A model generated the notes under the pieces. The model had not been told where the DNA came from. It did no database searches and worked only from the letters and a program-made list of their open reading frames with translations. Below, piece by piece: positions 8,438 through 35,040 of a DNA stretch of 39,966 bases. The DNA is from a virus: positions 1 to 39,966 of the IMG/VR virus record IMGVR_UViG_3300042879_000342; one strand, 5' to 3'. The position numbers and the translations under genes were made by a program. Every line of letters starts with the position of its first letter. The stretch's first letter is position 1.

Positions 8438-9139
8438 ATGATTAAATCAAACGAAACAGTATCTATTGGCTGGTGCGATAACGGCACAACTGACGGTAAG
8501 TTTACTGAAGGGTTAGTATCTATAATCCTTGCTGGGGCTAACAATGGTGTGCCTATTGCTGGTTCTATTAGAGTACAAGGTAACCAGATAGCCCGTCAAA
8601 GACAGTCTTTACTAGACCATTGGTATGATGAAAGTAAAACTGACTGGTTGTTATGGATAGATTCTGACATAGTAGTAGATATAAATATCTGGAAACTATT
8701 GCACGATACTGCAGATAAAGATACCCACCCAATGGTTAGTGGTATTTACTTTATAGCCAAGGATAGAGATGGCAGTTTGCCAGTACCTATGCCAGTTATA
8801 TTTGATGACATAGATGAATACACAGTTAAGTATCATCATCCATTACCACCTAATCAAGTACTTAAAATTGATATGGCTGGTATGGGATTAGTAGTTATGC
8901 ATAGAGATGTTGTAACTAAACTTCGTGAGAAGTTTGGTAATGATGTATCTTTCTTTGCTGAAAATGACCAGAAGAATGATAAGTTTGTAGGAGAAGATAT
9001 ATCTTTCTTCCGCAAATGTAAGACTGCTGGTATTTCATTACACGCACATACCGGTGCAGTAGCCAAGCATATGAAGACTACTGTATGGGATATGGACTTA
9101 TACGCTTTATATTGGAATTCAAAAGCCCAACAAAAATAA
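8438..9139 (+). CDS. GT-A type glycosyltransferase-like protein, copy 2
   Basis: 233 residues with ribosome site TTAGGGGACACAATG. Aligns with the protein at 1434-2183 throughout: WCDNGTTDGKF, QGNQIARQRQ (about 47-56), LLWIDSDIVV (71-80, DSD metal site), PLPPNQVLKIDMAGMGLVVM, FVGEDISFFRKC, and HTGAVAKHMK. The central segment and acceptor-side residues differ, so the two enzymes may add different sugars or act on different targets. Placed between fibre genes and the large tail protein; probable virion or host-surface glycosylation. Confidence 0.8.
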   Translation: MIKSNETVSIGWCDNGTTDGKFTEGLVSIILAGANNGVPIAGSIRVQGNQIARQRQSLLDHWYDESKTDWLLWIDSDIVVDINIWKLLHDTADKDTHPMVSGIYFIAKDRDGSLPVPMPVIFDDIDEYTVKYHHPLPPNQVLKIDMAGMGLVVMHRDVVTKLREKFGNDVSFFAENDQKNDKFVGEDISFFRKCKTAGISLHAHTGAVAKHMKTTVWDMDLYALYWNSKAQQK

Positions 9140-11553: not shown

Positions 11554-12138
11554 ATGGGGATGAAAGCAAATAACTTTCCTAAATGGTTTTACGATAACAA
11601 CACAGTCCAAGACTTTGAACTAGGACTAGCAGAGTTTAAGGGTAAAAAGAATCTTAAGTTCTTACAGATAGGTGTCTTTACTGGCAACGCATCTGTTTGG
11701 TTACTAGAGAATATTCTTACAGACCCAACATCATTACTTGTAGATATAGACCCTTGGTGTGGTAACCTACCTCATGAGTCAGTCTATGACTGGGATGATA
11801 TACAAGAAGCATATAAGGAACAGATAAAGCCTTATGCTAAGAAGGTAGCCTCACATAAAGCATTTAGTGGTGACTGGCTAAAAGAACATAGAGATGTTAA
11901 GTATGACTTTATTTACATTGATGGTGACCACCTACCGGAATCAGTTACCTTAGATGCCAACCTATCCTGGGACTTATTAAAGCCTGGTGGTATTATGGCA
12001 TTTGATGATTATGAGTGGGACCATCCAGATGGTACAGATAAGAATCCTAAGCCAGCAATAAATGCTTGGCTATTAAAACATAAATCAGATATAGATATAT
12101 TACGTATGGGATGGCAAGTATGGATAAGAAAGAAGTAA
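11554..12138 (+). CDS. SAM-dependent methyltransferase, class I
   Basis: 194 residues (ATG 11554; an ATG two codons later is equally possible). Rossmann motif I is FLQIGVFTGNAS (about 31-42), acidic end of strand 2 is LLVDIDPWCG, motif IV is YDFIYIDGDHLPESV, and LKPGGIMAFDDYEW is the post-III strand. This pattern matches the TylF / Methyltransf_24 type, which often methylates sugars or small molecules. Lying in the same operon as two glycosyltransferases, it may finish a modified glycan. Substrate not readable. Confidence 0.85.
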   Translation: MGMKANNFPKWFYDNNTVQDFELGLAEFKGKKNLKFLQIGVFTGNASVWLLENILTDPTSLLVDIDPWCGNLPHESVYDWDDIQEAYKEQIKPYAKKVASHKAFSGDWLKEHRDVKYDFIYIDGDHLPESVTLDANLSWDLLKPGGIMAFDDYEWDHPDGTDKNPKPAINAWLLKHKSDIDILRMGWQVWIRKK

Positions 12139-19309: not shown

Positions 19310-19486
19310 CTATCCTCCAGTTGAATAGAATCCTGTGCCTTTGAAGTGGACAGGATTAGGTTGATACTCTCGTATCATTTCTCTATTACATTGCGGACAC
19401 TCAACTAAGTCATCTCTGTCATCAACATTACGGCTTAGTTCTAGTAGTGTCTTATCGTCTTGACATCTATAAGAATAGGTTGGCAT
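19310..19486 (-). CDS. FmdB-like zinc-ribbon protein (58 aa)
   Basis: Reads MPTYSYRCQDDKTLLELSRN, VECPQCNREM and HFKGTGFYSTGG on the minus strand. This is the complete FmdB/Zn-ribbon_8 pattern: a PTY-Y-C start, a CP-C pair and an F-G-GFY-T end. One of its expected cysteine pairs is reduced to a single Cys (YRCQD in place of C--C). TAATG overlap with the upstream gene. Its stop lies 6 bases from the stop of the convergent sigma-like gene. Role of FmdB-like proteins in phages is unknown, possibly transcription regulation. Confidence 0.8.
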   Translation of the reverse strand: MPTYSYRCQDDKTLLELSRNVDDRDDLVECPQCNREMIREYQPNPVHFKGTGFYSTGG

Positions 19487-19662
19487 TATAACTCCTCACT
19501 ATCTTCAGGTGTTGGTGCTGTTGCAAGAGTGCCACATAAAGCACACTCCATATCTAAGAAGTACATATCAATCTCACCAGTCTCATCATCAAAGACAGTC
19601 TTTAAGTTCCAGATATTACAACCACAAGGACACACAGTAGTGGCGCTACCGCGTATGTCCAT
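19486..19662 (-). CDS. 58-residue zinc-ribbon protein
   Basis: Minus-strand frame with Cys pairs TTVCPCGCNIW and MECALCGTLA about 28 residues apart, a zinc ribbon around a beta hairpin (VFDDETGEIDMYFLDME). ATG at 19662 is the only usual start; an open frame continues upstream (IKPKHITELKPDYKSA) with only ATT available, so the true protein may be about 16 residues longer. Sits between the transglycosylase-like gene and the FmdB-like gene. Confidence 0.65.
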   Translation of the reverse strand: MDIRGSATTVCPCGCNIWNLKTVFDDETGEIDMYFLDMECALCGTLATAPTPEDSEEL

Positions 19663-19709
19663 AGCAGACTTGTAGTCTGGTTTAAGTTCTGTTATATGTT
19701 TAGGTTTAA

Positions 19710-20111
19710 TTAGTAGTATCCATTCTTAGTAAAGAACTTCCACGCTTCGCAAGGTGTGTGATACCTATGATAGATATAAGACAAGCCTCTATCAATTTGT
19801 TTTGGCGCAGGAGTATTGGGGTCTAGCCCTAATAATTGTGGAATACCTCCAGCATTTTTACCCATTACTTTAATTTTATTATATGCGTTGGGTCTCCAAT
19901 TGCTTTCTTTAGTCCACAGTTTATTAAGGCAAGACCATTGCTTATGCTTCCACTCGTATAGTTTATCCTTTGCGTATGCTTTACTATCCAATACAGTCCA
20001 GTTATCTTTTATATTTTTATTATTTGTAGGACTATTGATCGGACTAGCAAACATAACACTAACTAACACTAGGATAGTTATAGTAAGTGTTAACATAAAA
20101 CCTCGTCTCAT
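19710..20111 (-). CDS. Secreted lytic transglycosylase-like protein
   Basis: 133 residues. Basic start MRRGF, one hydrophobic segment (MLTLTITILVLVSVMFA, about 6-22) that is a signal or anchor, then an SLT-like domain: WSCLNKLWTKESNWRPNAYN with catalytic Glu69, AGGIPQLLGL, and QIDRGLSYIYHRYHTPCEAW ending FFTKNGYY. Cys61 and the Cys of TPCEAW may form a disulfide outside the membrane. Unlike the endolysin it lies in the early leftward operon, so it may remodel the wall of the living host or block other phages. The ATG overlaps the stop of the upstream small frame (ATGA). Confidence 0.8.
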   Translation of the reverse strand: MRRGFMLTLTITILVLVSVMFASPINSPTNNKNIKDNWTVLDSKAYAKDKLYEWKHKQWSCLNKLWTKESNWRPNAYNKIKVMGKNAGGIPQLLGLDPNTPAPKQIDRGLSYIYHRYHTPCEAWKFFTKNGYY

Positions 20112-20200
20112 AATAGAGCACCTATAAAGTAGAGAACTAAAAGAAATATAAGAGTATATGGTATGGTCGCACCACCTAGAATGAATAGTGAACCAACCAC
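20108..20200 (-). CDS. Possible 30-residue membrane peptide
   Basis: From GTG at 20200: VGSLFILGGATIPYTLIFLL then VLYFIGALL, hydrophobic along its whole length, ending in an ATGA overlap with the transglycosylase-like gene. The open frame extends upstream to 20240 (VKILKFIGFNFV) but offers no ATG. Tight fit between two genes supports translation; start uncertain. Confidence 0.4.
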   Translation of the reverse strand: MVGSLFILGGATIPYTLIFLLVLYFIGALL

Positions 20201-20240
20201 AAAATTAAATCCTATAAACTTTAGTATCTTTACACCTCTC

Positions 20241-20417
20241 TCAGATTTCCTCTGCTATTACATCTTTGCCTTGTGGCATATCAAACTCAGACACTATCCA
20301 TTCTTTATATGGTGCGTCTATTGCTAACTCAATCGCTCTATCTATATCATACTCTGATACATAATAGACTAGTTCTGCTTGAGTCTTGATTGTTATTCTG
20401 TAGTTATTCGTATTCAT
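20241..20417 (-). CDS. 58-residue hypothetical protein
   Basis: MNTNNYRITIKTQAELVYYV followed by SEYDIDRAIELAIDAPYKEW and an acidic end DVIAEEI. Not recognised; strand-helix-helix layout. Overlaps the preceding gene in the operon by 14 bases in another frame. Shorter than usual gene-calling limits. Confidence 0.6.
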   Translation of the reverse strand: MNTNNYRITIKTQAELVYYVSEYDIDRAIELAIDAPYKEWIVSEFDMPQGKDVIAEEI

Positions 20418-20577
20418 TATCGAACAACCCTTCTATATCTCTGTCGCTAGACATCTCTTCATAAGTGATATAAACCAAGTCGTCTAGTTCTCTGATAAGC
20501 AAACTTATCTTATCCTCAGACCAGCCAACTACCATATCACTAGTGATAGCACCTTGCCACACTAAATTGTTATCCAT
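20404..20577 (-). CDS. 57-residue acidic hypothetical protein
   Basis: MDNNLVWQGAITSDMVVGWS then SEDKISLLIRELDDLVYITY and an acidic end SSDRDIEGLFDNEYE. Unrecognised. Its start overlaps the end of the WhiB gene by 8 bases. The small gene at 23637-23816 begins with the same MDNN head but is otherwise unrelated. Confidence 0.6.
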   Translation of the reverse strand: MDNNLVWQGAITSDMVVGWSEDKISLLIRELDDLVYITYEEMSSDRDIEGLFDNEYE

Positions 20578-21001
20578 TTATACCTCGCTCTCTTATAGTT
20601 TTTCTAACCTTATTGGCGAACTTAACTTTCATCATGTTGTAAGAATTCTTGGTTACCTTGCCAAGCATAGCCAGTCTTTCACCGGGCATAGTGCCACCAT
20701 ATATACCGAAGTGTAATTGTGGACCACGCATACCTAGTTCTAAACAGTTCTCCTTAGCGGGACAGTTCTTACATACAGACAAGGCTGATATAGCCTTATC
20801 TATTTCTATATTAACTCTGCGAGTTTGGTCTTTGGTATTTCTCCATACCTCACCCTCAAGTAACTCTACCTCACCAGCAAACCATAAGTCTGGGTCGTCG
20901 TGTCCTACGCATAACCCATTACTTACATCTACCTTAGGGTAGTTCATAAGATGATAACTCATTGAACTAGTGGGGTATCCTGTACCTATAGTACCAGCCA
21001 T
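20570..21001 (-). CDS. whiB: WhiB-family Fe-S transcription regulator
   Basis: 143 residues with the four cluster cysteines Cys31, Cys77, Cys80, Cys86 (GLCVGHDDPDLWF ... SVCKNCPAKENCLELGM) and the WhiB turn GIYGGTMPGER. The gap between the first and second Cys is longer than in host proteins (45 residues), with an acidic insert. The basic C-terminal tail (KVKFANKVRKTIRERG) probably binds DNA. WhiB proteins are confined to actinobacteria and their phages; phage versions are known to act against host WhiB regulation (TM4 case). Start overlaps the stop of the next upstream gene (TGATG). Confidence 0.92.
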   Translation of the reverse strand: MAGTIGTGYPTSSMSYHLMNYPKVDVSNGLCVGHDDPDLWFAGEVELLEGEVWRNTKDQTRRVNIEIDKAISALSVCKNCPAKENCLELGMRGPQLHFGIYGGTMPGERLAMLGKVTKNSYNMMKVKFANKVRKTIRERGING

Positions 21002-21141
21002 CAGTTATGTATTCCGTGAGCAAAGCATACGCTTTGTACTGCTAATGATAACTCTGATATCATCTCTTTTATTTCCTCTTGCGATAGGCTTTCAACCTCA
21101 GACTTCCTAATAAAAGAAGTCCATATATATTCCTCTAACAT
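21001..21141 (-). CDS. 46-residue hypothetical protein before whiB
   Basis: MLEEYIWTSFIRKSEVESLS, then a helix QEEIKEMISELSLAVQSVCF and AHGIHN. Ribosome site AGAGAGGACAATATG. Its stop overlaps the whiB start, so the two are probably translationally coupled. Not recognised. Confidence 0.6.
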   Translation of the reverse strand: MLEEYIWTSFIRKSEVESLSQEEIKEMISELSLAVQSVCFAHGIHN

Positions 21142-21164
21142 ATTGTCCTCTCTGTGTTGGTGTA

Positions 21165-21184
21165 GGTGGGGCGATTACCCCACC
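21165..21184. other. GC-rich hairpin upstream of the whiB segment
   Basis: GGTGGGG (21165-21171), loop CGATTA, CCCCACC (21178-21184): perfect seven-base stem between the gene at 21202-21492 and the gene at 21001-21141. No T-run follows on the minus strand, so it is not a standard terminator; it may be an attenuator or an mRNA processing or stability element that separates expression of whiB from upstream genes. Confidence 0.7.
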
Positions 21185-21201
21185 CACAATTAACTAGTTT
21201 A

Positions 21202-21492
21202 TTATGGGCGGAATACTACTGAAGTGTAACCTTCAAGGCGTGAGTGTTTAGCGATTAAGCCCTTCTCACCAGTCAAGTGTTTATACTTGCCATTGCCCAA
21301 CGATACCCACATAGACTTAGGCTTGAACCTAGTCTGATCAGGTAGTGCTTTAAGTATTGTACCTCTTGGTTCATATCCGCTAGCGTCCTCTAAATCAAAG
21401 TGAATTGTTGCCAACTCATCTGATAGGTCTGCTAATGCTAGAGATATATTAGCCAAGTAGTTTTCTATCTGTTCTGCTGTCGTGGTTGTCAT
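21202..21492 (-). CDS. 96-residue hypothetical protein
   Basis: MTTTTAEQIENYLANISLAL opens a helical first half (ADLSDELATIHFDLEDASG); the second half is beta-like with GNGKYKHLTGEKGLIAKHSR and ends TSVVFRP. Ribosome site GAAAGGTAAAGT. Unrecognised. It stands alone between two hairpins in the leftward operon. Confidence 0.65.
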   Translation of the reverse strand: MTTTTAEQIENYLANISLALADLSDELATIHFDLEDASGYEPRGTILKALPDQTRFKPKSMWVSLGNGKYKHLTGEKGLIAKHSRLEGYTSVVFRP

Positions 21493-21573: not shown

Positions 21574-22419
21574 CTAGAAGTCAAGTGGTTCTTTACTATA
21601 CCACTTGTTGCCGTACTCATTTCGTATCATATCTTTAGCGATAGGATTATAGCATAAACAATCTAAGAAGGTTGCGCTACAATCGAAGCAACACTCACAC
21701 ATATTACAATACAAATCATTCTCCCACAAATCTATTAGCGACTCACAACTGGGACACTCGAACTTGTTGTCCTCAAAATCGCTGGCTTGGAAGTGGCTAT
21801 CTGTTGCTACGATATCATAAACGCTAGGTTCGTAACTGTATGGCTTGGTAATGGGCGTAGACTTATACGAAGTATTACTCCACCACACACCATTGTCGTC
21901 CCAACTACCTAAGTTCTCGTTGATAATATACATCTTGTATTGTGTGCTAGGGTCATTGGTCATCACCGCTATCTTACTACCACTAGCCCATGAACTAATC
22001 ATATCATATAGATAGTCGTCATCTAGCGCAGACACACCGCCTAATCGTGGCAGTAATTCATCTGCTAGTATGCGAGTATCGCTACGCTTATCATCTTTAG
22101 GTATTAGAATATCTAACACACCATTGTGTGCCAAGTAAGTATCGTGCTCACCCTCTAACTTAAATGGGTGGCAGTTCAGTTCGTTCTTTACTCCGTGAGT
22201 AGCATACCTAGCGTGCCACATAGCATAGCCATTAGGATATTGCTCTCTAAGTTCTAAGAACCTTTTAATAGATTTCTTAGCGGACATACTGCGTTCAGAT
22301 ATAATACCACTACCAGTATCTATTGCGAACCCAAATCCGTGTGGGTTCTTACAAGCACCAGTAGTAAGGTCATCTTTACTCGGTGTGGAATTAGGATTAC
22401 ACACCACTAACAAACACAT
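21574..22419 (-). CDS. Class II glutamine amidotransferase-like protein
   Basis: 281 residues. Starts MCLLVVCNPN, so removal of Met exposes Cys as the N-terminal nucleophile of class II (Ntn) amidotransferases. Family motifs: NPHGFGFAID, MWHARYATHG (68-76), YLAHNGVLDI (95-104), KRSDTRILAD. The C-terminal 60 residues add a Cys-rich ribbon (FECPSCESLIDLWENDLYC, CECCFDCSATFLDCLC). Would free ammonia from glutamine for a partner enzyme; the adjacent amidoligase is the obvious partner. Ribosome site AAGGGGGG. The two genes lie 11 bases apart. Confidence 0.85.
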   Translation of the reverse strand: MCLLVVCNPNSTPSKDDLTTGACKNPHGFGFAIDTGSGIISERSMSAKKSIKRFLELREQYPNGYAMWHARYATHGVKNELNCHPFKLEGEHDTYLAHNGVLDILIPKDDKRSDTRILADELLPRLGGVSALDDDYLYDMISSWASGSKIAVMTNDPSTQYKMYIINENLGSWDDNGVWWSNTSYKSTPITKPYSYEPSVYDIVATDSHFQASDFEDNKFECPSCESLIDLWENDLYCNMCECCFDCSATFLDCLCYNPIAKDMIRNEYGNKWYSKEPLDF

Positions 22420-22430
22420 ACTTACCCCCC

Positions 22431-23627
22431 TTACGCATTGACTAACTCCGTGCTATCGATTACTAACTTATCCACTCTACTCATACGCATGTAGAGTTCA
22501 GGATATAAACCATTGTTGGCTTGTATCCAATCAGCAAACCACTCCCAACTTAACGCACCCATTTTTACATCTGATAGGGTTAAGTTGCGTGTGTATTCTA
22601 CTGTAGCGTGTGCTAATTGTATAGCACTAAGCACACCCTCAGGGTTCATAGTCCCTCTAAAGAACCTGAGTTCTAGGGTGTGTTCGTTCTGCGTATTTAC
22701 CGCAGAATATCTTTCGGTCATTGACCTGCTAGGGTGAGCGACCTTATGCTTTAGTGTGAAGTATGGTCTATCGAACTCATCATACTGCCACACATCATTG
22801 AACTGTGCGTATCTAGACTTGCGACCCCCTAACTTCATCATCTTATCTGAGTTCTTGTAGATAAGGGATAAGAACCTGTGCGTGTGAGCACCACCCTTGA
22901 ACCCTGTTCTACTGATATGTATATGTAGTCCGCAACTCTTAGCGTCCCAACTTCTAGCACTATGAACCTTGCGTAGATAATCTAGCGTAGCCCATAAGTT
23001 CTTACCTTCAGCGAAATAATCTAGGGTAGCAGGGTGAGATACCATTTCGAACCCACGATATCCACCGCTATTGATACTACTATCCTCTTTAAGATAGGTA
23101 AAGTCGCCTAGCATTTCCATAATATAACTAGCACTATCGCTTAGGTTGTTATCCCTAATCTCCATTTCCAATTCTATGCCGAAGTATAGATTATCTTTAG
23201 AGTTGCCATAGAACTTAGGGTCAGGCTTGTAAGAATAGTTATGGATTATCCTAGAACTATCATCACAACTATCACAACCATCTCGGTTGTATTGGTCGCA
23301 ACTATCACACCACTCAGCGTTCTCTTGGCAACACTCCTCGCACCAATAGACACCGATATCAGCAACCTCATAACTAGAGTGATTATCAGAGTAGGTACTC
23401 TCGCAACGCTCACACCAAAAGGTATAGTTATCAGCGCACACCTCGCAATAAGTACCATAACCCTCTACATATCGACAACCTTCTTCATAATCAAAGTTGT
23501 CGCAACGCTCACAATAGATACGACAGTCAGAACATAGCACCTCTCCACTTCGAGTGGTGGCTAAGTCATCTGGGCTATACTCACTAGAGCATTGAGCGCA
23601 CTCAACTAACTCTACTTCATCAGCCAT
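22431..23627 (-). CDS. Cys-rich amidoligase
   Basis: 398 residues. The first 121 residues hold 18 Cys, mostly as CxxC pairs (10/13, 32/35, 39/42, 61/64, 72/75, 96/99, 107/110, 118/121), a chain of zinc ribbons or LIM-like knuckles. The catalytic part follows: LYFGIELEMEI (148-157) with metal-binding Glu, EDSSINSGGYRGFEMVSHPA (181-200), SCGLHIHIS (231-239), and late ELRFFRGTMN. This is the pattern of the glutamine-synthetase-fold amidoligases (Amidoligase_2), which join an amine to a carboxylate using ATP. The zinc array may bind the target protein. Ribosome site AAGGAGTTGAT. Confidence 0.85.
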   Translation of the reverse strand: MADEVELVECAQCSSEYSPDDLATTRSGEVLCSDCRIYCERCDNFDYEEGCRYVEGYGTYCEVCADNYTFWCERCESTYSDNHSSYEVADIGVYWCEECCQENAEWCDSCDQYNRDGCDSCDDSSRIIHNYSYKPDPKFYGNSKDNLYFGIELEMEIRDNNLSDSASYIMEMLGDFTYLKEDSSINSGGYRGFEMVSHPATLDYFAEGKNLWATLDYLRKVHSARSWDAKSCGLHIHISRTGFKGGAHTHRFLSLIYKNSDKMMKLGGRKSRYAQFNDVWQYDEFDRPYFTLKHKVAHPSRSMTERYSAVNTQNEHTLELRFFRGTMNPEGVLSAIQLAHATVEYTRNLTLSDVKMGALSWEWFADWIQANNGLYPELYMRMSRVDKLVIDSTELVNA

Positions 23628-24398: not shown

Positions 24399-24722
24399 TT
24401 ATAGGTAGTTCTCAGCAGGTCTAGCCAGTAGGCTAGCCATCATAGCCTTACGCTCATCAAGCGCAATTCTACGCAACTCATCATCAGTTAAGGGTTTAGG
24501 GGTAGTATCGGGTTTAGGCTTAGCGTTCTTAATTGTACGCCTTGCCAGTTTAACCGCTTGACTATCTTCGATAGCCACGATTATATTGCCCGACTTATCA
24601 CGCACCACTAGATTAGAGAACCGCTTACTGCGTGAACCTAACCACGCAGGGGCAGAACGCACATCTCTAGGGGGTGTGATAATGCTACCGCTAACCCCAT
24701 AGGGGTTATACGACACTATCAT
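24399..24722 (-). CDS. 107-residue hypothetical protein, first gene of leftward operon
   Basis: MIVSYNPYGVSGSIITPPRD is followed by a beta hairpin (RFSNLVVRDKSGNIIVAIED), the basic helix SQAVKLARRTIKNAKPKP and a C-terminal helix LTDDELRRIALDERKAMMAS. Unrecognised. The basic middle could bind nucleic acid. Ribosome site GAAAGGATATG. First gene behind the operator/promoter cluster, so it is a candidate early regulator by position. Confidence 0.65.
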   Translation of the reverse strand: MIVSYNPYGVSGSIITPPRDVRSAPAWLGSRSKRFSNLVVRDKSGNIIVAIEDSQAVKLARRTIKNAKPKPDTTPKPLTDDELRRIALDERKAMMASLLARPAENYL

Positions 24723-24739
24723 ATCCTTTCACTAGGGGT

Positions 24740-24761
24740 TAGGCTACTAGTGAGTAGTCTA
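24740..24761. promoter_or_regulatory. Operator-like 22-bp palindrome, copy 1
   Basis: TAGGCTACT-AGTG-AGTAGTCTA: nine-base arms with one mismatch around a 4-base centre. Ends 18 bases upstream of the ATG of the first leftward gene. Same arms as copy 2, different centre, as expected for a dimeric repressor site. Confidence 0.65.
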
Positions 24762-24810
24762 GTTAGTATCCCATCAGCGCAACCGCCGATATTCTAGGGG
24801 CGTATCTCTC

Positions 24811-24832
24811 TAGGCTACTTACTAGTAGTCTA
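24811..24832. promoter_or_regulatory. Operator-like 22-bp palindrome, copy 2
   Basis: TAGGCTACT-TACT-AGTAGTCTA, identical arms to copy 1, 71 bases away. It lies just downstream of the expected start point of the promoter at 24847-24875, a classic position for repression. Confidence 0.65.
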
Positions 24833-24846
24833 ACCTTGTAAGAACT

Positions 24847-24875
24847 AATCTACACTATCCTTTACCGCTTGTCAA
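24847..24875 (-). promoter_or_regulatory. Leftward early promoter, CTTGAC family
   Basis: Minus strand CTTGACA (TTGACA at 24870-24875, 6 of 6), 17-base spacer, TAGATT (24847-24852, 4 of 6). Likely main promoter of the leftward operon, followed by operator copy 2. Confidence 0.65.
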
Positions 24876-24894
24876 GTTCGACACGCCGTAAGTT

Positions 24895-24910
24895 CTAAAA
24901 TATATTTTAG
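24895..24910. repeat. 16-bp perfect AT palindrome
   Basis: CTAAAATATATTTTAG, a perfect palindrome between the two tandem leftward promoters. Echoed by an 18-bp palindrome of similar make-up at 25372-25389. Confidence 0.6.
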
Positions 24911-24926
24911 TTCTTTATTTAGTTAT

Positions 24927-24948
24927 ATCGGGTTATTTCTAACCTGAT
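24927..24948. promoter_or_regulatory. Imperfect 22-bp palindrome (different operator type)
   Basis: ATCGGGTTA-TTTC-TAACCTGAT: nine-base arms, one mismatch, 4-base centre. Located just downstream of the -10 of the upstream leftward promoter (24955-24960). Confidence 0.5.
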
Positions 24949-24954
24949 AAGAGA

Positions 24955-24983
24955 ACCTTAGTACATAATTAAGCGTAAGTCAA
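24955..24983 (-). promoter_or_regulatory. Possible second leftward promoter, CTTGAC family
   Basis: Minus strand CTTGACT (TTGACT at 24978-24983), 17-base spacer, TAAGGT (24955-24960, weak). Included because the -35 and spacing repeat those of the three other leftward promoters. Confidence 0.4.
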
Positions 24984-24999
24984 GCGTGTCGCAAATAAT

Positions 25000-25025
25000 C
25001 TCAAATAGTAAGACGCTCAAATAGT
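25000..25025. repeat. Iteron-like direct repeats
   Basis: CTCAAATAGT at 25000-25009 and 25016-25025, 16 bases apart, with a related CGCAAATAAT at 24990-24999. Sits next to SOS box 1. Confidence 0.5.
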
Positions 25026-25040
25026 GTTAGGTACATCACA

Positions 25041-25054
25041 CGAACACTTGTTCG
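25041..25054. promoter_or_regulatory. SOS box 1 (LexA site)
   Basis: CGAAC-ACTT-GTTCG, followed by A. Perfect five-base arms of the Gram-positive/actinobacterial LexA operator CGAAC-N4-GTTCG; one of the four centre bases deviates from the Bacillus-type consensus. Confidence 0.75.
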
Positions 25055-25086
25055 AATATAGGGGGGCTAAGGGTCGGGGAGATAGT

Positions 25087-25102
25087 TCGAACATGCGTTC
25101 GA
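25087..25102. promoter_or_regulatory. SOS box 2 (LexA site)
   Basis: TCGAAC-ATGC-GTTCGA, perfect 16-bp form of the actinobacterial SOS box, centre also matching RNRY. Its centre is 47 bases from that of box 1, on about the same helix face if counted as four and a half turns, so looping is not implied. Confidence 0.85.
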
Positions 25103-25123
25103 TTATTTAGATTTTAATATATC

Positions 25124-25143
25124 TCTCAGGTAGTTCTCAGGTA
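25124..25143. repeat. Direct repeat TCTCAGGTA x2
   Basis: TCTCAGGTA at 25124-25132 and 25135-25143, 11 bases apart, one helical turn. A second short tandem repeat, AGGTAAGT x2, is at 25171-25186. Protein-binding array is possible. Confidence 0.45.
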
Positions 25144-25191
25144 TCTAGTAAAGGTTTAGGGTAGAAAAATAGGTAAGTAGGTAAGTAGATA

Positions 25192-25207
25192 TATCGACAA
25201 ATCGATA
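25192..25207. promoter_or_regulatory. Palindrome TATCGA-CAAA-TCGATA
   Basis: Perfect six-base arms with a 4-base centre, a third type of operator-like site in the control region. Another small inverted repeat, TTAGG-TGG-CCTAA, is at 25276-25288. Confidence 0.5.
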
Positions 25208-25345
25208 AAACTTTGACCCAGACTTCTTTAATTTACGCACAGTAATATATATATGTCTTACCCTATAACTTTATGTTAGGTGGCCTAATATATATACATA
25301 TCGGACATTTATAAGAAATATCACCCTAAGTTGTTCGCTTTTCAG

Positions 25346-25354
25346 TTATTCACA
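25346..25354 (+). promoter_or_regulatory. DnaA box
   Basis: TTATTCACA, an exact TTATNCACA match in AT-rich non-coding DNA, 18 bases before an 18-bp AT palindrome. Confidence 0.6.
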
Positions 25355-25371
25355 GGTTATCTATATATGTA

Positions 25372-25389
25372 ATATAAAATATTTTATAT
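25372..25389. repeat. 18-bp perfect AT palindrome
   Basis: ATATAAAATATTTTATAT. Directly between the DnaA box and the hairpin pair; would melt easily. Confidence 0.6.
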
Positions 25390-25390
25390 A

Positions 25391-25429
25391 CGGAGATTCC
25401 TCCGTTTGATCTACGGAATCTCCTATAAT
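25391..25429 (+). promoter_or_regulatory. Alternative hairpins and -10-like box before terminase
   Basis: GGAGATTCC (25392-25400) pairs with GGAATCTCC (25415-25423), perfect nine-base arms. CGGAG (25391-25395) can instead pair with CTCCG (25400-25404). The two folds exclude each other. TATAAT follows at once (25424-25429) but no good -35 is found at 16-19 bases, so an activator or phage sigma-like factor may be needed for late transcription. Confidence 0.55.
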
Positions 25430-25508
25430 AGTATATATATAATAATATATATAATGGGATAACTCTGCCGTTAGGTAGATACCGTTAGATTAGTCTTAGG
25501 GGCGTTAA

Positions 25509-27365
25509 ATGGCAAAGCAGAACCTGACCAAAGAAGAGGCCCAGTATAAGGTTATCACCCAACTCAAACAAGGCCAAACTATCAAGATGGCTATGGAGTC
25601 GGTTGGTAGATCTGAGGCCGCTTTTCGCCAATGGACACTTACTGAACCAAGTTTTAAAGAACAGGCTGACAAGGCTAGGCTAGAAGCCAAGGGCGTCAAG
25701 ACTGACTTAGCCGAACTTAAGGATATCTCCTTCGAGGATTTCTCTCAGGAGTTTCTAGACACTTCCCTTTTTGACCACCACCTTGACTGGGTGGATCTGG
25801 TAGAGGGTAGGGAGCCTAGGTGGGTACATCCATCTATGACCTACGAGCCAGGTGCTTCTAACCGTGTACTTATAAACGTACCACCTGAGCACGCCAAGTC
25901 AACTGTTGTTACAATTAACTACGTTACCTACCGCCTTGCTGTAGATCCTAACGTTAGAATCATTATAGTTTCAAAAACCCAGGGTATGGCCCGAAAGTTT
26001 CTTTCAGCCATCAAGACTAGACTTAGTCACCCCAACTGGACTAAACTACAAGTGGCCTTCGGCCCACAGGGTGGATACAAAGCAGACTCCAATACTTGGT
26101 CTGCTGATATGATCTATCTAGGTTCAGGTAGAGACTCTGGAGAAAAAGACCCAACTGTTCAAGCATTAGGATTTGGATCTCAGATTTACGGTGCTCGCGC
26201 CGATCTGATTATCCTTGACGATGTGGTGATGAATGCAAATGCCCATGAGTGGGAGAAGCAAATTGAATGGCTTCAAAAAGAAGTCATCACCCGTTTGGGT
26301 CGACACGGAAAACTACTTATAGTAGGAACCCGTGTCGCACCTATTGATCTTTATAAGATGATGAGAGATCCCGGTCAATGGACTGGTGGCAAATCTCCAT
26401 TCACTTACTTTAGTCAACCAGCAGTATTAGAATTTGATGAGAACCCTGCCAATTGGAAAACCTTATGGCCCAAGACTGACAGGCCTGAAGGGGAACAAGA
26501 TGAGCCAGACAAAGACGGATTATATACCAAATGGGATGGACCCTCGTTATTTACTAGAAGGTCTGAAGTTGCTCCGTCAGTATGGGCGCTTGTCTACCAA
26601 CAAGAAGATGTTATGGAAGACTCGATCTTCTCGCCAACTACTGTCGCTGGATGCGTCAATGGAATGCGAAAGAGAGGACCTCTCAAGGCTGGAGTCCCAG
26701 GCCATCCAAAACATATTGATGGTTCTTATACCGTTATCGGCCTCGACCCTGCTATGGCAGGAGCCACAGGAGCAGTAGTAGTAACCTACAATCGCTCTGA
26801 TGGTAAGATCTATATATTAGACTGCGTCAATATGACAGATACTACCCCACAAAGAATTAGAGATCTCATAGAAGAATGGGTTATCAAATACAAACCCCAA
26901 GAGATCCGAATAGAAATTAACGCCCACCAGAAGGCTTACGCCTTAGATGATGATCTACGCAACTGGTTGGCGGCTCACGGCTGTACCCTCAACTCTCACT
27001 TCACAGGTAAGAACAAATGGGATACAGGATTTGGTGTAGCCTCTATGGCATCACTGTTTGGGACAACAAGAGATTCTCGTTTCCAAGATAATAATCTAAT
27101 TGAACTTCCTTCTAATGAAGGCTCTGAGGGCTTAAAGTCCTTAGTACAGCAATTAATTACTTGGAAACCTGATACCAAAAACCCAACCGACTGTGTGATG
27201 GCACTATGGTTTGCCGTTATAAAAGTCCGTGAACTTATGCAGCAATCATCATATGCTACTAAGTTTGCTAACAATCGTTGGGCAACTAGAGCACAAAAAG
27301 ATAAAAGATACGGAATCAATTTAGACGACGCCTTTGCAGAGCAATGGCAAGAAACCTATGGTTAG
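25509..27365 (+). CDS. terL: Terminase large subunit
   Basis: 618 residues. Residues about 8-60 look like a helix-turn-helix (KVITQLKQGQTIKMAMESVG, RSEAAFRQW) of the kind normally found in small terminase subunits. ATPase: NVPPEHAKST (123-132) as Walker A variant, ADLIILDDVV (231-240) as Walker B with the acid, IVGTRVAP as coupling motif. Nuclease: VIGLDPAMAG (409-418), IRIEINAHQK (466-475) and a late Asp in NPTDCVMALW. It cuts and pumps genome DNA into proheads. No separate small subunit gene was found. Confidence 0.92.
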   Translation: MAKQNLTKEEAQYKVITQLKQGQTIKMAMESVGRSEAAFRQWTLTEPSFKEQADKARLEAKGVKTDLAELKDISFEDFSQEFLDTSLFDHHLDWVDLVEGREPRWVHPSMTYEPGASNRVLINVPPEHAKSTVVTINYVTYRLAVDPNVRIIIVSKTQGMARKFLSAIKTRLSHPNWTKLQVAFGPQGGYKADSNTWSADMIYLGSGRDSGEKDPTVQALGFGSQIYGARADLIILDDVVMNANAHEWEKQIEWLQKEVITRLGRHGKLLIVGTRVAPIDLYKMMRDPGQWTGGKSPFTYFSQPAVLEFDENPANWKTLWPKTDRPEGEQDEPDKDGLYTKWDGPSLFTRRSEVAPSVWALVYQQEDVMEDSIFSPTTVAGCVNGMRKRGPLKAGVPGHPKHIDGSYTVIGLDPAMAGATGAVVVTYNRSDGKIYILDCVNMTDTTPQRIRDLIEEWVIKYKPQEIRIEINAHQKAYALDDDLRNWLAAHGCTLNSHFTGKNKWDTGFGVASMASLFGTTRDSRFQDNNLIELPSNEGSEGLKSLVQQLITWKPDTKNPTDCVMALWFAVIKVRELMQQSSYATKFANNRWATRAQKDKRYGINLDDAFAEQWQETYG

Positions 27366-29725: not shown

Positions 29726-30160
29726 ATGGCAGAGAACAGAGGCGGTTATCGTCCAACTGCACCACAGAATAATCCTGCAAACATATCAGCAACTGGTGGA
29801 GCAGGACAATCAGGTACACAACCTGCACGCTATATGTCAGGCTTAGCCTACGGACAAGGTCAAGCACAAATGGAGCAACAAACTTCTGCACCTATGGCTG
29901 GTAACCCTGTTGCCGCTACTGCACAACCTGTGGCTTCTGCACCTCAGTTTACACCAGTTATTCCATTAACTGCTCCTACACAAAGACCTGATGTTCCAAT
30001 TACAAATAATTTAGATCAAGAACCTATGTTGCCAGCAATGGTACCTCAGCAACAACCAGATAATTCAGCAAAATTAATTCAGGCACTATATCTTCAAGAT
30101 CCAAGCAATGAAGATGTTCGTCGTATGTTGGAGTATTTGAGCGCTGAAGGCAGGATCTAG
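29726..30160 (+). CDS. 144-residue disordered structural-operon protein
   Basis: Pro/Gln/Ala/Gly-rich through most of its length (TAPQNNPANISATGGAGQSG, PMAGNPVAATAQPVASA), ending in a short helix SAKLIQALYLQDPSNEDVRR with LEYLSAEGRI. Ribosome site TAGGAGGAACT is near perfect, so it is well translated. The helix resembles a docking peptide. Could be a scaffold-like or cargo protein for the giant protein downstream, with which it overlaps by one base. Confidence 0.65.
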   Translation: MAENRGGYRPTAPQNNPANISATGGAGQSGTQPARYMSGLAYGQGQAQMEQQTSAPMAGNPVAATAQPVASAPQFTPVIPLTAPTQRPDVPITNNLDQEPMLPAMVPQQQPDNSAKLIQALYLQDPSNEDVRRMLEYLSAEGRI

Positions 30161-33100
30161 TGTCTCTTCCCAATATTAAAAAAGACGCTAATGGAAACTA
30201 TGTACTTGAAGGTATTCAAGAGCGTGAAATATCTCAGAATCAATTTGATTACAATGAGGTTGTTCAAGCAACACAATTTTTAACTGGTCCCCAGGGGGCT
30301 GCTGCTCGTGCAGCCATATCAAAAAATACAGATATTTCTGCTGGAGTTATTGCTGGATTATATAAAAATGGAAACATTGGATCTAGCCCACTAGTAGATA
30401 CCTTTGTTGAAATAGATAGACAAACCGCTGCTAAAAGATATCAAGATCAATTTAAAGAAGCACAAAGAATTTCCAACGAAGAGTTTCAGAAAAAGATCTG
30501 GGGTAAAGCCTGGACTGGTTTTAAAGGAGCAATTCGTAATACTGGATTAGCACTTACTACTCCAATTGAAACTTGGTTTAGTGGACTTGGTAACACAATT
30601 GGTTTAGTTGCAAAAGAGTTCCAACTTCAGGCTCAAGGAAAATTAACTTGGGATGGTAAGCCAACTGATCCGAATGAGACAAGAGAAAGTCTTGGATTAA
30701 CTTCCGAAAAAGAATTACTTAATATAGCCCTTAATCCAATAATTCCACTTAAGCAGACTACAGCATTCCAAGCAGGCAAGCAACTTATTGATGAAGGTAG
30801 AATTGATCTAGGTCAAGGATTTTTTCCTAGTGAAGAAATGGGTGCTGGGTTTAAAGCACGCCAAGAAAAAATGAAGTATGCTAAAATTCCAGTTTACCAA
30901 AACGGTGAGCAAGTAAAAGACGCCGAAGGTAATCTTATATATAGACCATACTCTCCTGTAGATCCAGTATCTTTTGTTATTACAAAAGGACTTGGACTTG
31001 ATGAGAGTAATGCAAGATTTATTAATGCTCTTGGTGAACTAGGAATAATGGTTATATCAGATCCTACATCAGCATATGCTAGAGCCGCTAGACTTAAAAA
31101 ACAATTAGAACAAGCAAAAGCATTTAATGCTGGTGTTTTACCAGGCAAGCAAATGCAAAGACTTACAATGCTAGAGACTCAAGTTGATGAGGCTCAAAAG
31201 GCAGTCGAAGAATCTCTTGCTCAAATGAACGTTTTCAATGGCATGACAACTGGTCAAAAGATTACTAACTATAGAGCCGCACTTGCAGAGCAAACTAAAA
31301 TAGAATCAGAGTTTGCTACAGTATTATCTAAAGAAATAAATTATGAACCAATTGCTGCGTTTATAAGTGGTAGCAATGGATCTCACATTGTAGATGCTAT
31401 TGTTGAATTAAATGACTGGAAACAAATCTACAAAATTAGTAAGGTGGGTGGCAAACTTGGATTTACCCAAGAGCAAGCAAGAGTTTTGGCTGCCGCTACA
31501 AGTAGAGAAGAAGTATTAAGAGCAATTGCTCCATATATAGCAAATGGTGATGTTGCACAAAATCTTTTAGAGACAGGAACTACTACTAGTAGATTCTTAA
31601 ATAAAATTGTTCCTGGTAAATTGGCTCGTCCAGCAGAGGGTATTACAGGTTGGGCCGCAAAAGGTATTCGCAAAGTACCATTCATTCAGAAGACATTAAC
31701 TGGATTAAGTAAATCTTATTCTACATATGTTCCGCTTAGTGGTTCATTTGTACACTATGCCGACAAAGATGCATTAATTGAAACAATAATTAACTATGGA
31801 CGATCTACTAAGGTAGATGAAAAAGTTATCGATTCAATTATAGATGAGATTGCATTTTCAACAGATGCATCCGTTGCTGGATTCAAGGGTGTGACCAAAT
31901 TATTTGACGCCATATTTGAATCTAACAAGGTTGCTTTTGCTAAGGCTGGTATAGATGATGCAGGGTTGAGAAAATTAACTAAAGTATTTGATGCTGAACG
32001 TAAAACGCAGTCAGCATACTGGGCTGAACTTCATGCTAGTGGAGCAGAAATAGATTTTGTAATTGCTAATGGCAAGAAGTTTACACTTAGTGGTCCACAT
32101 TTAGACTCAGAGTTTTTAAATTCTATGGTTTATTTCCCATCTGCTACAGATATTATGTTGGAAATATCAAAAATTAGTAAGTTGTCTAAGGCTACTGGTG
32201 GTTTATCTAATAAACTTATCAAGCCAGCAGATTGGTTTACTAGCAATTTCTGGAAAAAGGTAGTTTTAACTAGACCTGCTTATGTAATCCGTAACATTAC
32301 TGAAGAGCAGATACGAGTTATGGCTACTGGCCACGTATCTTTTTTTAATAATCCTGCTATGGCTATAGGAATGTGGTTAGGGCGTGAGGGTGGACCTAAA
32401 TGGAAATCTCTTTTAAACACATTTGATCCATATAGGCACACAGTATTTGGAACTCAATTTAAATTAGCCAATTCTGCAGATGAATTATTGTTTGAATCAA
32501 TGGCACACGATCAAGGCTTTAAATATATGGATTTTATGCAGAGCCAAGCAATTGGTGCTGCTAATGAAACTCAAAGAGTATCTACTTTAAGAGGATACAA
32601 AAACGTTCAGGTAGATGAGCCAAGATTTTGGGAAGGTATTGCAAACGAAATTCGTATGCTACAAGCCAGCCCTATTGCTAAAGCGGTTGCAAGAACACAA
32701 CCAGGTTACGAACAAGCAACTATTGATTATCTATTAAGAGGTCAAGGTAAAGATGCTTGGACTAGATTTGTTAATGCTAGAAATGAAGAGACTAAAGCCT
32801 GGTTATTAACTGACCAAGGTGCTCGTACCTACTTATTTGACGGAGTTACTTCAAATGGTAGAGCCGCATCTTTAAGATCACGTATAGAAGAAGTTGCTGG
32901 TCAAGGTGGACCTGCTTCTTCAGCAATACGTAAATTAATTTCTGATGGTTCATTTGAGACTGCTGGTTATTCTTTGAAAGTTCCTACTGCTGCAGATAGT
33001 GCAAGAAACTCTGTTAAGAATGCTCAGGAAGTTTCTAAGAATCGTAAGTCAATTAAAGATGCTAATGAAGAATTTGCTGAACAATTAGAAAAAGTATTTA

Positions 33101-35040
33101 AAGGCCAAGGCAATTGGGCTGGAATAAGATTCAAAGTATCAGACCCTACAACCGTTATATCTAAAGGTGAGGGTGGCCCTAAGTGGGTAGACAACTTCTT
33201 TGATTTTACTATTAGGCTTGAGAAGACAACTACTATGGGTCCTGAATGGCGTCAAAAATACTGGGACGTAGTAAGAACTATGGCTTTATCAGCAGACTCC
33301 AATGCTTTAAAATTATTAAAAGAGACAGCAGATAAATCTTTACGCCCACTAGTTAACCCTAATGGTATTAGAATTGGTGATAAGCACGCTGCTTGGAACA
33401 TTCTTAATAAAGCAAAAGGTGATGGTCCACTAACGATTGATGAGATCCACGAATATGCTTCTAAGATTGCAAGCAATCATACAAAAGAATTATTTTATAA
33501 CGCATCAAAGAGACGTTTAATATGGCATCAATTAAGATTAATTGCACCATTCGGAAACGCTTGGAGCGATACTATTGCCAAATGGTCTAAACTTTCATTT
33601 GATAATCCAGATCAAGTATATAAGATATCAAGAAATTTAAACTGGCTTAACTCACCAGAATCATCTGCATTATATGAAGTAACAGATGCTAAAGATTATT
33701 ATGACCCAAATCAAGGATTCTTTTTTACAGATCCTTTAAGTGGTCAACGTAATTTCTTTGTACCGTTTATGTCAACTGGTATGAATTTTATGACGAACCT
33801 ATTCAAAGGCGACCTTAGCCTAAAGGGTCCTTTTGCTGCTGGTGCTAGCCCTCAATCTTTTAACTTCGCACTTGGATCTGGAATTGTACTTCCTGGATTT
33901 GGACCTGGAATTTCTCTAGGTTTAACTGCACTAGATAGTACAAATAAGAATCCTCTAGATATGCTTCCACCTGCGTGGAAAGATGAGATGTATAAATTCA
34001 TATATCCATTTGGTCAAGCAGATTTAAGTATAGCATCTCAGGCCATAGGTTCAGTGACCAGCGGAAATATAGGAAGAGTATTTGCTGGAATAACAGGTTC
34101 ACAAGAATCTTATGCTTCATCATTCTCTCCGATTATGAATTATCTTGCATCAAGTGGCGATTATAATATAGATGATCCAGCCGATCAAAGCAAGTTAATT
34201 ACAGATACAAATAGATTTGCTCAATACTTTATGTTGATGCGAGGTTTATTTGGTTTCGTATCTCCAGTTGCTATTCAACCAAAAGATTTAACCAATGATA
34301 AAGATGGAAATCTTTTATTAGCCTCATCATTATACTCTGATTTCAGAACTTTAGAGCAGGCTAATGGATCTAATAGAAACAAAGCATATGCAGACTTTCT
34401 AGATATATATGGTCCAGAGCAAGTATTTGCTATAATATCAGCAACATCTGGTGGCCCTAATAATCTTTATACATATGATTTAATCCAAAGAGATCCTACT
34501 GTGGTTGACCAATACTCTGATGTATATGGTTACTTTTATCCTAATGGTGGATTCTCTCAAGAATTGTATAGATGGCAAGTGCGTAATAAGAAGCGTGAAA
34601 AATTATCTTCTCAAGAGATTCTAGAAAAGGCGACTAATGTTCGCTACTATGCTGCTAAAGATAGGTTATTAGCACGTTCTGTAGGTGAGACTTGGGACTC
34701 TAAGAGAACTCAAAAAGCACTGCAAGATCTGGGCGATTCATATGAAATGCGTAATCGTAAAGTCATATTTGATGCTACTAAGGAACCAAGAATCCTTGCT
34801 CAATTAAAACAGGCAGCATATGATGAAAGATTCATAGACTCTGAAGCCGTTAATGGTTTAAGAGATTACTTGCATTTAAGAGATAAAGCAATTACTGCTA
34901 GTGGTAGAGTATCTTTAAAGAATCAATCTAGCCTACCTCAAAGAGAATGGCTTGCTCAACAAGCACTTGATATTATAAAGAAATACCCTGATTTCCAGAA
35001 ATTATATTATTCATTCTTTAAAAAAGAATTGGAAGGTTAA
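30160..35040 (+). CDS. Giant internal virion protein candidate (1626 aa)
   Basis: GTG start shared with the last base of the previous TAG. The longest gene of the genome, 12 percent of it. Mostly helical with long charged and Gln-rich stretches; a Gly/Leu-rich segment near residues 1220-1300 (SFNFALGSGIVLPGFGPGIS) and one near 125-150 could contact membrane. A block ANKTDPNEFRESLG-like (DPNETRESLG) and LDIYGPEQVFAIISATSGG are the only motif-like parts. No lysozyme or transglycosylase motif was found. Size and place suggest an ejected core protein like those of podoviruses; a polyprotein is also possible. Confidence 0.7.
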   Translation: MSLPNIKKDANGNYVLEGIQEREISQNQFDYNEVVQATQFLTGPQGAAARAAISKNTDISAGVIAGLYKNGNIGSSPLVDTFVEIDRQTAAKRYQDQFKEAQRISNEEFQKKIWGKAWTGFKGAIRNTGLALTTPIETWFSGLGNTIGLVAKEFQLQAQGKLTWDGKPTDPNETRESLGLTSEKELLNIALNPIIPLKQTTAFQAGKQLIDEGRIDLGQGFFPSEEMGAGFKARQEKMKYAKIPVYQNGEQVKDAEGNLIYRPYSPVDPVSFVITKGLGLDESNARFINALGELGIMVISDPTSAYARAARLKKQLEQAKAFNAGVLPGKQMQRLTMLETQVDEAQKAVEESLAQMNVFNGMTTGQKITNYRAALAEQTKIESEFATVLSKEINYEPIAAFISGSNGSHIVDAIVELNDWKQIYKISKVGGKLGFTQEQARVLAAATSREEVLRAIAPYIANGDVAQNLLETGTTTSRFLNKIVPGKLARPAEGITGWAAKGIRKVPFIQKTLTGLSKSYSTYVPLSGSFVHYADKDALIETIINYGRSTKVDEKVIDSIIDEIAFSTDASVAGFKGVTKLFDAIFESNKVAFAKAGIDDAGLRKLTKVFDAERKTQSAYWAELHASGAEIDFVIANGKKFTLSGPHLDSEFLNSMVYFPSATDIMLEISKISKLSKATGGLSNKLIKPADWFTSNFWKKVVLTRPAYVIRNITEEQIRVMATGHVSFFNNPAMAIGMWLGREGGPKWKSLLNTFDPYRHTVFGTQFKLANSADELLFESMAHDQGFKYMDFMQSQAIGAANETQRVSTLRGYKNVQVDEPRFWEGIANEIRMLQASPIAKAVARTQPGYEQATIDYLLRGQGKDAWTRFVNARNEETKAWLLTDQGARTYLFDGVTSNGRAASLRSRIEEVAGQGGPASSAIRKLISDGSFETAGYSLKVPTAADSARNSVKNAQEVSKNRKSIKDANEEFAEQLEKVFKGQGNWAGIRFKVSDPTTVISKGEGGPKWVDNFFDFTIRLEKTTTMGPEWRQKYWDVVRTMALSADSNALKLLKETADKSLRPLVNPNGIRIGDKHAAWNILNKAKGDGPLTIDEIHEYASKIASNHTKELFYNASKRRLIWHQLRLIAPFGNAWSDTIAKWSKLSFDNPDQVYKISRNLNWLNSPESSALYEVTDAKDYYDPNQGFFFTDPLSGQRNFFVPFMSTGMNFMTNLFKGDLSLKGPFAAGASPQSFNFALGSGIVLPGFGPGISLGLTALDSTNKNPLDMLPPAWKDEMYKFIYPFGQADLSIASQAIGSVTSGNIGRVFAGITGSQESYASSFSPIMNYLASSGDYNIDDPADQSKLITDTNRFAQYFMLMRGLFGFVSPVAIQPKDLTNDKDGNLLLASSLYSDFRTLEQANGSNRNKAYADFLDIYGPEQVFAIISATSGGPNNLYTYDLIQRDPTVVDQYSDVYGYFYPNGGFSQELYRWQVRNKKREKLSSQEILEKATNVRYYAAKDRLLARSVGETWDSKRTQKALQDLGDSYEMRNRKVIFDATKEPRILAQLKQAAYDERFIDSEAVNGLRDYLHLRDKAITASGRVSLKNQSSLPQREWLAQQALDIIKKYPDFQKLYYSFFKKELEG

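Follow-up and report, generated by a model that had tools for sequence, protein, structure and literature searches.

Two adjoining minus-strand genes of a 39,966-base virus record (IMGVR_UViG_3300042879_000342), analysed at full length and referred to here as the window, encode an amidoligase with a cysteine-rich N-terminal arm and a class II glutamine amidotransferase (GATase). The best explanation as a whole, to which we give an about even chance of being right, is that the two genes specify one two-subunit, glutamine-dependent amide synthase that modifies a host macromolecule. The amidoligase gene lies upstream and the GATase gene second, transcription running from position 23627 downward. 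The features of the pair are as follows.

22431..23627, minus strand: Amidoligase_2 gene (glutamine-synthetase-like ligase), 398 aa; open reading frame, Pfam, PHROG, AlphaFold2 model
23265..23600, minus strand: predicted zinc-finger arm, amidoligase residues 10-121; cysteine conservation, LIM-like spacing
22512..23192, minus strand: glutamine synthetase (GS)-like catalytic core, about residues 146-372; alignment of 120 sequences
22434..22469, minus strand: predicted disordered C-terminal tail, residues 387-398, ending in [N/E/Q]-Ala-COOH; pLDDT < 50
22420..22430, minus strand: 11-nt spacer with ribosome-binding site GGGGGGTAAGT; sequence
21574..22419, minus strand: class II glutamine amidotransferase (Ntn glutaminase), 281 aa; open reading frame, Pfam, phrog_25883, AlphaFold2
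21652..21756, minus strand: predicted GATase zinc cluster, residues 222-256; C-x2-C-x12-C-x2-C-x2-C-x2-C-x6-C-x-C

Both proteins retain their catalytic residues

The two reading frames and the sequence motifs named for them in a preliminary description of this DNA were correct. The amidoligase matches PF12224 (Amidoligase_2; E = 1.1e-8, 35.7 bits with a cut-off of 22) and the PHROG families phrog_22302, phrog_16683 and phrog_2443. The GATase matches phrog_25883 (E = 9e-37) as well as GATase_6 (9.2e-6, just under the cut-off) and GATase_4 (2.3e-5, over the cut-off) in Pfam. The PHROG families span most of the amidoligase and most of the GATase, and none of them carries a function label. A sequence search of the PDB with the amidoligase returned no relative and hence no solved structure. 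When its AlphaFold2 model (pLDDT 83.5) was compared with the PDB by Foldseek, matches to YbdK, GmaS, Dop/PafA and GS were obtained (E 3e-5 to 1e-3). An alignment of 120 amidoligase sequences from phages, plasmids and bacteria revealed the core motifs FGIELEMEI, D182-x-S184, G192-x-E194, GLHIHxSR, N311 and T317-x-ELRFF, with E152, E154, D182, S184, E194, H235, H237, N311, E319 and R321 kept in 119-120 of the 120 proteins. Among these, E152, E154, E194, E319 and R321 are the conserved acidic and basic metal/ATP residues of the GS-like fold. The preliminary description had named loss of metal- or nucleotide-binding residues upon full alignment as an outcome that would speak against it; no such loss occurred and the catalytic residues are kept.

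The GATase model (pLDDT 76.5) matches the glutaminase folds of GlmS, PurF and EgtC in the PDB (E 4e-6 to 3e-4). Cys2, R71 (the Arg of HARYATHG), H98-N99-G100 and D114-T115 (SDT) are invariant in 25 relatives and unchanged across 10 diverse members, including those of Marvin, MEP402, ctgrD200 and StenR_269. The N-terminal Cys nucleophile, the Arg, the Asn-Gly oxyanion hole and the Asp for glutamine that define a class II GATase are all present. Judged by these residues, both proteins are probably active enzymes. In the literature searched, neither a characterised member of the Amidoligase_2/GATase pairs nor an experimental test of one was found.

Cysteine-rich regions are present in both proteins

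The 18 cysteines counted earlier in the first 121 amidoligase residues were confirmed. With the cysteine content of 0.48% found in 24 other open reading frames of the window, at least 18 in such a stretch would be expected by chance with P ~1.6e-21. They include C-x2-C knuckles at residues 10/13, 32/35, 39/42, 61/64, 72/75, 96/99, 107/110 and 118/121. Across 31 phage relatives, in which identity otherwise falls to 46%, 14 of the arm cysteines are invariant and 2 near-invariant. Their spacing (C-x2-C-x18-C-x2-C-x3-C-x2-C-x18-C-x2-C, plus two more pairs) is LIM-like, and Foldseek returned weak matches of the arm to LIM domains (LHX4, FHL2, Isl1, PINCH) over ~100 residues. The Pfam LIM family (PF00412) yielded no match to the window amidoligase at E <= 0.1, and its best score in a bacterial relative, 15.3 bits, lies below the cut-off of 22.9. 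From the cysteine pattern we infer a tandem array of LIM-like zinc fingers with predicted metal binding. The array is variable in length: members of the phage clade have 7 to 11 CxxC pairs, and bacterial copies no more than 11; an additional four-Cys unit is inserted in some relatives (L078 and L092 type), and the copies of C. difficile have lost the arm. Note that the arm is acidic (32 D+E versus 6 K+R in 125 residues; the median excess of acidic residues is 26 for phage and 18 for bacterial proteins), and docking of a protein or substrate is therefore favoured over nucleic-acid binding. That the arm recognises the substrate is plausible.

While the preliminary description was right about the amidoligase arm, it missed the second, eight-cysteine cluster on the GATase. 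All eight residues are invariant in 25 relatives, and the cluster is predicted to bind zinc. It is also present in the GATase of Marvin and absent from those of MEP402, ctgrD200 and StenR; 61 of 66 bacterial partner GATases are devoid of CxxC in their C-terminal part.

The amidoligase of the phage clade ends in a conserved dipeptide

At the C-terminus of the amidoligase, Ala is the final residue in 83 of 86 distinct loci of the phage clade and is preceded by Asn, Glu or Gln in 82 of the 86, an ending not seen in the bacterial homologues. The terminal Ala is specified by all four codons, and Asn by AAC (33) and AAT (32). The idea that the Asn-Ala end is a side effect of the ribosome-binding site that follows it was rejected, because this site is located 3' of the stop codon. 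Given this position and the use of all four Ala codons, the constraint looks to act at the protein level. The tip looks like a short linear motif, be it for GATase docking, for degradation or for self-modification.

The two genes form a conserved pair on phages and other mobile elements

The spacer between the two genes holds GGGGGG, and a distance of 0-15 nt is kept in nearly all relatives. Within the clade of the window, the genes are adjacent and in the same order in all 110 distinct phage contigs in which both are readable, and every clade member without the partner gene ends at a contig edge. Separation of the genes in related phages, the other outcome that had been named as contrary evidence, did not occur. 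The amidoligase also precedes the GATase in Marvin (gp105-106), MEP402 and ctgrD200, on the mycobacterial plasmid pGD21-2 and in a human-gut phage, there with a different GATase subtype. Where bacterial loci leave room downstream, a GATase directly follows the amidoligase in 63 of 73 cases; the 10 exceptions comprise a frame-shifted join and some tandem amidoligases. In C. difficile, the copies on phage and plasmid likewise lack a GATase partner. Because these and the 10 bacterial copies are unpaired, the ligase can occur without that GATase. In two Ruminococcus-type genomes (L223, L229), zinc-armed amidoligases are arranged in tandem with no neighbouring GATase.

Bacterial pairs occur mainly in Oscillospirales and also in Coriobacteria, Ignavibacteria, Victivallis and Phycisphaerales. 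A hallmark of mobile elements (resolvase, relaxase, integrase, P4-type primase, DUF3846 and others) was found in 48 of the 59 longer bacterial loci. Amidoligase and GATase distances are correlated (Mantel r = 0.87, 0 of 2000 permutations as high), which co-inheritance alone could yield. A joined reading frame (L172:5173-7218) was considered as fusion proof of pairing and rejected, since a single indel separates it from an unfused, 97% identical locus (L170). Furthermore, on a contig of 6.4 kb from a metagenome-assembled Thermoproteota genome (L217), a zinc-armed amidoligase lies near a GATase and a COOH-NH2 ligase (PF14395), the only match among 29 genomes of that phylum searched. If this copy were truly archaeal, its substrate could not be peptidoglycan; contamination is possible, and the copy was dropped as an argument against peptidoglycan.

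The pair resides in a conserved minus-strand block

The plus strand of the window carries head, tail and replication genes. The pair is part of a minus-strand block of small genes between a sigma-factor gene and the terminase, which also contains the following.

21202..21492, minus strand: 96-aa open reading frame right behind the pair, function unassigned; 88 of 90 relatives
20570..21001, minus strand: WhiB-like regulator; Pfam Whib 1.1e-7; 88 of 90 relatives
19710..20111, minus strand: exported lytic-transglycosylase-like protein; phrog_12661 transglycosylase 3.5e-18

Together with genes for two small Cys-containing proteins, one of them with Zn_ribbon_8, these make up a segment (19310-21492) that is kept in 86-88 of 90 relatives. 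Pfam and PHROG profile searches with the 96-aa protein gave no match. The WhiB-like regulator points to an actinobacterial host. The transglycosylase-like protein, in which an N-terminal hydrophobic signal and ES-x-W...G-x-PQ can be read, is kept in 88 of 90 relatives with a median identity of 61%. The block had been described as an early operon on account of its position only; with 23 promoter-like sites in the region versus 19.7 +/- 4.6 in shuffles, early expression found no backing. Between the divergent block and the terminase, ~790 non-coding bases (24722-25509) contain many short ATATAT repeats and are a possible control region or origin. Elsewhere in the window, two open reading frames flanking tail-fibre genes (1398-2183 and 8438-9139) match phrog_34859 ('glycosyltransferase') and have no Pfam match; they are likely paralogues. 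A 1,626-aa open reading frame in the structural region (30160-35040) matched nothing in PHROG and Pfam searches.

Comparison with known systems

In the core tree, the armed group is set apart from the arm-less LUZ24/phiEco32/StenR group (support 100/98), and the clade of the window stands beside the copies of Marvin and of mycobacterial plasmids (support 100/99). Marvin gp105 and gp106 (cluster S), both annotated merely as 'glutamine amidotransferase domain protein', are arranged like the window pair, are each 32-34% identical to their counterpart there and both carry zinc knuckles; they differ in that the arm is shorter (4 CxxC) and the amidoligase carries a long C-terminal extension. In the cassettes of LUZ24, phiEco32 and UFV-P2, a class II GATase likewise comes after Amidoligase_2, but there the amidoligase lacks the zinc arm, the GATase comprises 510-676 aa, and a COOH-NH2 ligase, an ATP-grasp protein and GGCT are added. 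The window pair is without all three: RimK-type ATP-grasp (PF08443), GGCT (PF06094) and COOH-NH2 ligase (PF14395) were searched for in the 40-kb record, which may be incomplete, and gave no match at E <= 1. As neither a peptide nor a peptidase was seen either, the peptide tag envisaged in the preliminary description is, like early expression, unsupported. What stands of its interpretation is a real, conserved and, by its residues, probably active amide-bond-forming pair whose arm is predicted to bind zinc.

The OM43 phages MEP401 and MEP402 resemble the window in having a two-gene pair that adjoins replication genes, and differ in that only two CxxC are present, in a long unrelated N-terminal part, and that the GATase has no zinc cluster. 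For the OM43 phage pair PF12224 and PF13522 have been named, and the superinfection idea has been repeated (PMC10580990). That idea, wall modification against superinfection in phiEco32, goes back to Iyer et al. 2009 as cited in PMC10580990, and a related cassette has been called a peptidoglycan modification cassette (PMC5498523). The suggestion of wall or peptide modification in the preliminary description is thus present in the literature, and is older than was implied. The kind of enzyme was predicted in 2009; the zinc-armed, two-gene subfamily spread widely over mobile elements is new.

PafA/Dop (Pup ligase/deamidase), YbdK and GmaS have the GS-like fold in common with the amidoligase but neither a glutaminase partner nor a zinc arm. 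MurT/GatD and LtsA/AsnB combine a glutaminase with ATP-dependent carboxylate activation. The window pair is like these two systems (for MurT/GatD see PMC3267633) in logic only, and its amidoligase is not homologous to their ligases, which have the folds of a Mur ligase and an ATP pyrophosphatase, respectively; GatD, moreover, is a class I glutaminase.

Proposed mechanism and alternative explanations

In the amide synthase that we propose, the GATase would hydrolyse glutamine at Cys2 and hand the ammonia to the GS-like amidoligase, the two subunits presumably forming a complex. With ATP, the amidoligase would convert a carboxylate of the substrate via an acyl-phosphate into a primary amide (carboxamide). 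The LIM-like arm, in the phage clade together with the GATase zinc cluster, would keep the two subunits in contact, dock the substrate, or do both. Glutamine-dependent carboxylate amidation is the simplest chemistry because a glutaminase and a GS-like ligase are all that is present, and since ATP-grasp, GGCT and COOH-NH2 ligase were not found, ammonia would be the nucleophile, needing no further enzyme. Most likely, the enzyme would serve to modify a host macromolecule in a way that favours the mobile element, the benefit being a guess. Peptidoglycan stem carboxylates would be the best single candidate substrate, likewise as a guess, which is mildly favoured by the conserved, exported transglycosylase-like protein encoded in the block. 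Against this argument, the transglycosylase-like protein may be the phage's own lysin, and the presence of the pair on conjugative elements fits a protein or defence target equally.

Ntn proteins with EgtC-like folds can be gamma-glutamyl hydrolases instead of ammonia donors, and it is to EgtC that the GATase model shows its highest target-normalised TM scores (~0.5). As the best PDB matches of the amidoligase model include the GCS2-type carboxylate-amine ligase YbdK and the gamma-glutamyl-methylamide synthetase GmaS, the amidoligase might add gamma-glutamyl or another amino acid to an amine or protein, from which the GATase-fold protein would remove it. EgtA/EgtC and PuuA/PuuD are precedents for such pairs of gamma-glutamyl ligase and hydrolase. 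We nevertheless consider this, the chief alternative, unlikely, because the tight, ordered and co-translated pairing suggests a stoichiometric complex instead and a gene for making an amine acceptor is absent from the neighbourhood. It also appears improbable that the pair amidates or tags proteins so as to disable a host defence or takeover target, with the acidic zinc arm as protein-docking platform. In eukaryotes, LIM-like arms serve as modules that bind proteins, and the weak LIM fold matches, an acidity unlike that of a nucleic-acid binder and the variable number of CxxC pairs agree with such a role, as does the occurrence on both phages and conjugative elements, which fits a role in conflict; however, neither a target nor a tag peptide was seen, a PADLOC match is absent and the C. 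difficile copies have lost the arm. Protein-directed amidation or tagging in which the LIM-like arm docks the target, the system's own glutaminase feeds the reaction, a host protein or defence component is changed and the [N/E/Q]-Ala tail serves as docking or self-modification site is possible, if doubtful.

Very unlikely, in our view, is an auxiliary metabolic function, i.e., extra nitrogen assimilation or synthesis of an amide metabolite in infection. It has been proposed for a phage with genes for GATase, amidoligase, glutathione synthase and GGCT (PMC10945688), but the window-type pair is also present on conjugative and integrative elements, where metabolic neighbours are absent, and an arm with 14-16 cysteines seems superfluous on a small-molecule enzyme. 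Membership in a known anti-phage defence system was rejected, PADLOC having returned no match for the amidoligase, the GATase or their bacterial relatives. The same applies to a role in DNA modification: no supporting modification genes were recognised near the pair, and only an unrelated methyltransferase (11554-12138) was found.

Implications

Amidoligase and GATase genes are common in phages, and their function, wall change against superinfection, has been guessed at since 2009, as the later papers citing that work relate. The zinc-armed two-gene subfamily described here, whose genes always occur as a pair within one large phage clade, is common to Marvin and the mobile elements of gut bacteria. 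Since it is shared with the tractable mycobacteriophage Marvin, the old question can now be tested in M. smegmatis. Should the arm act as a substrate selector, mobile elements would have a new means of altering host molecules. Protein-directed amidation or tagging, if true, would have no counterpart among characterised systems and would be distributed over bacterial phyla by phages and conjugative elements alike.
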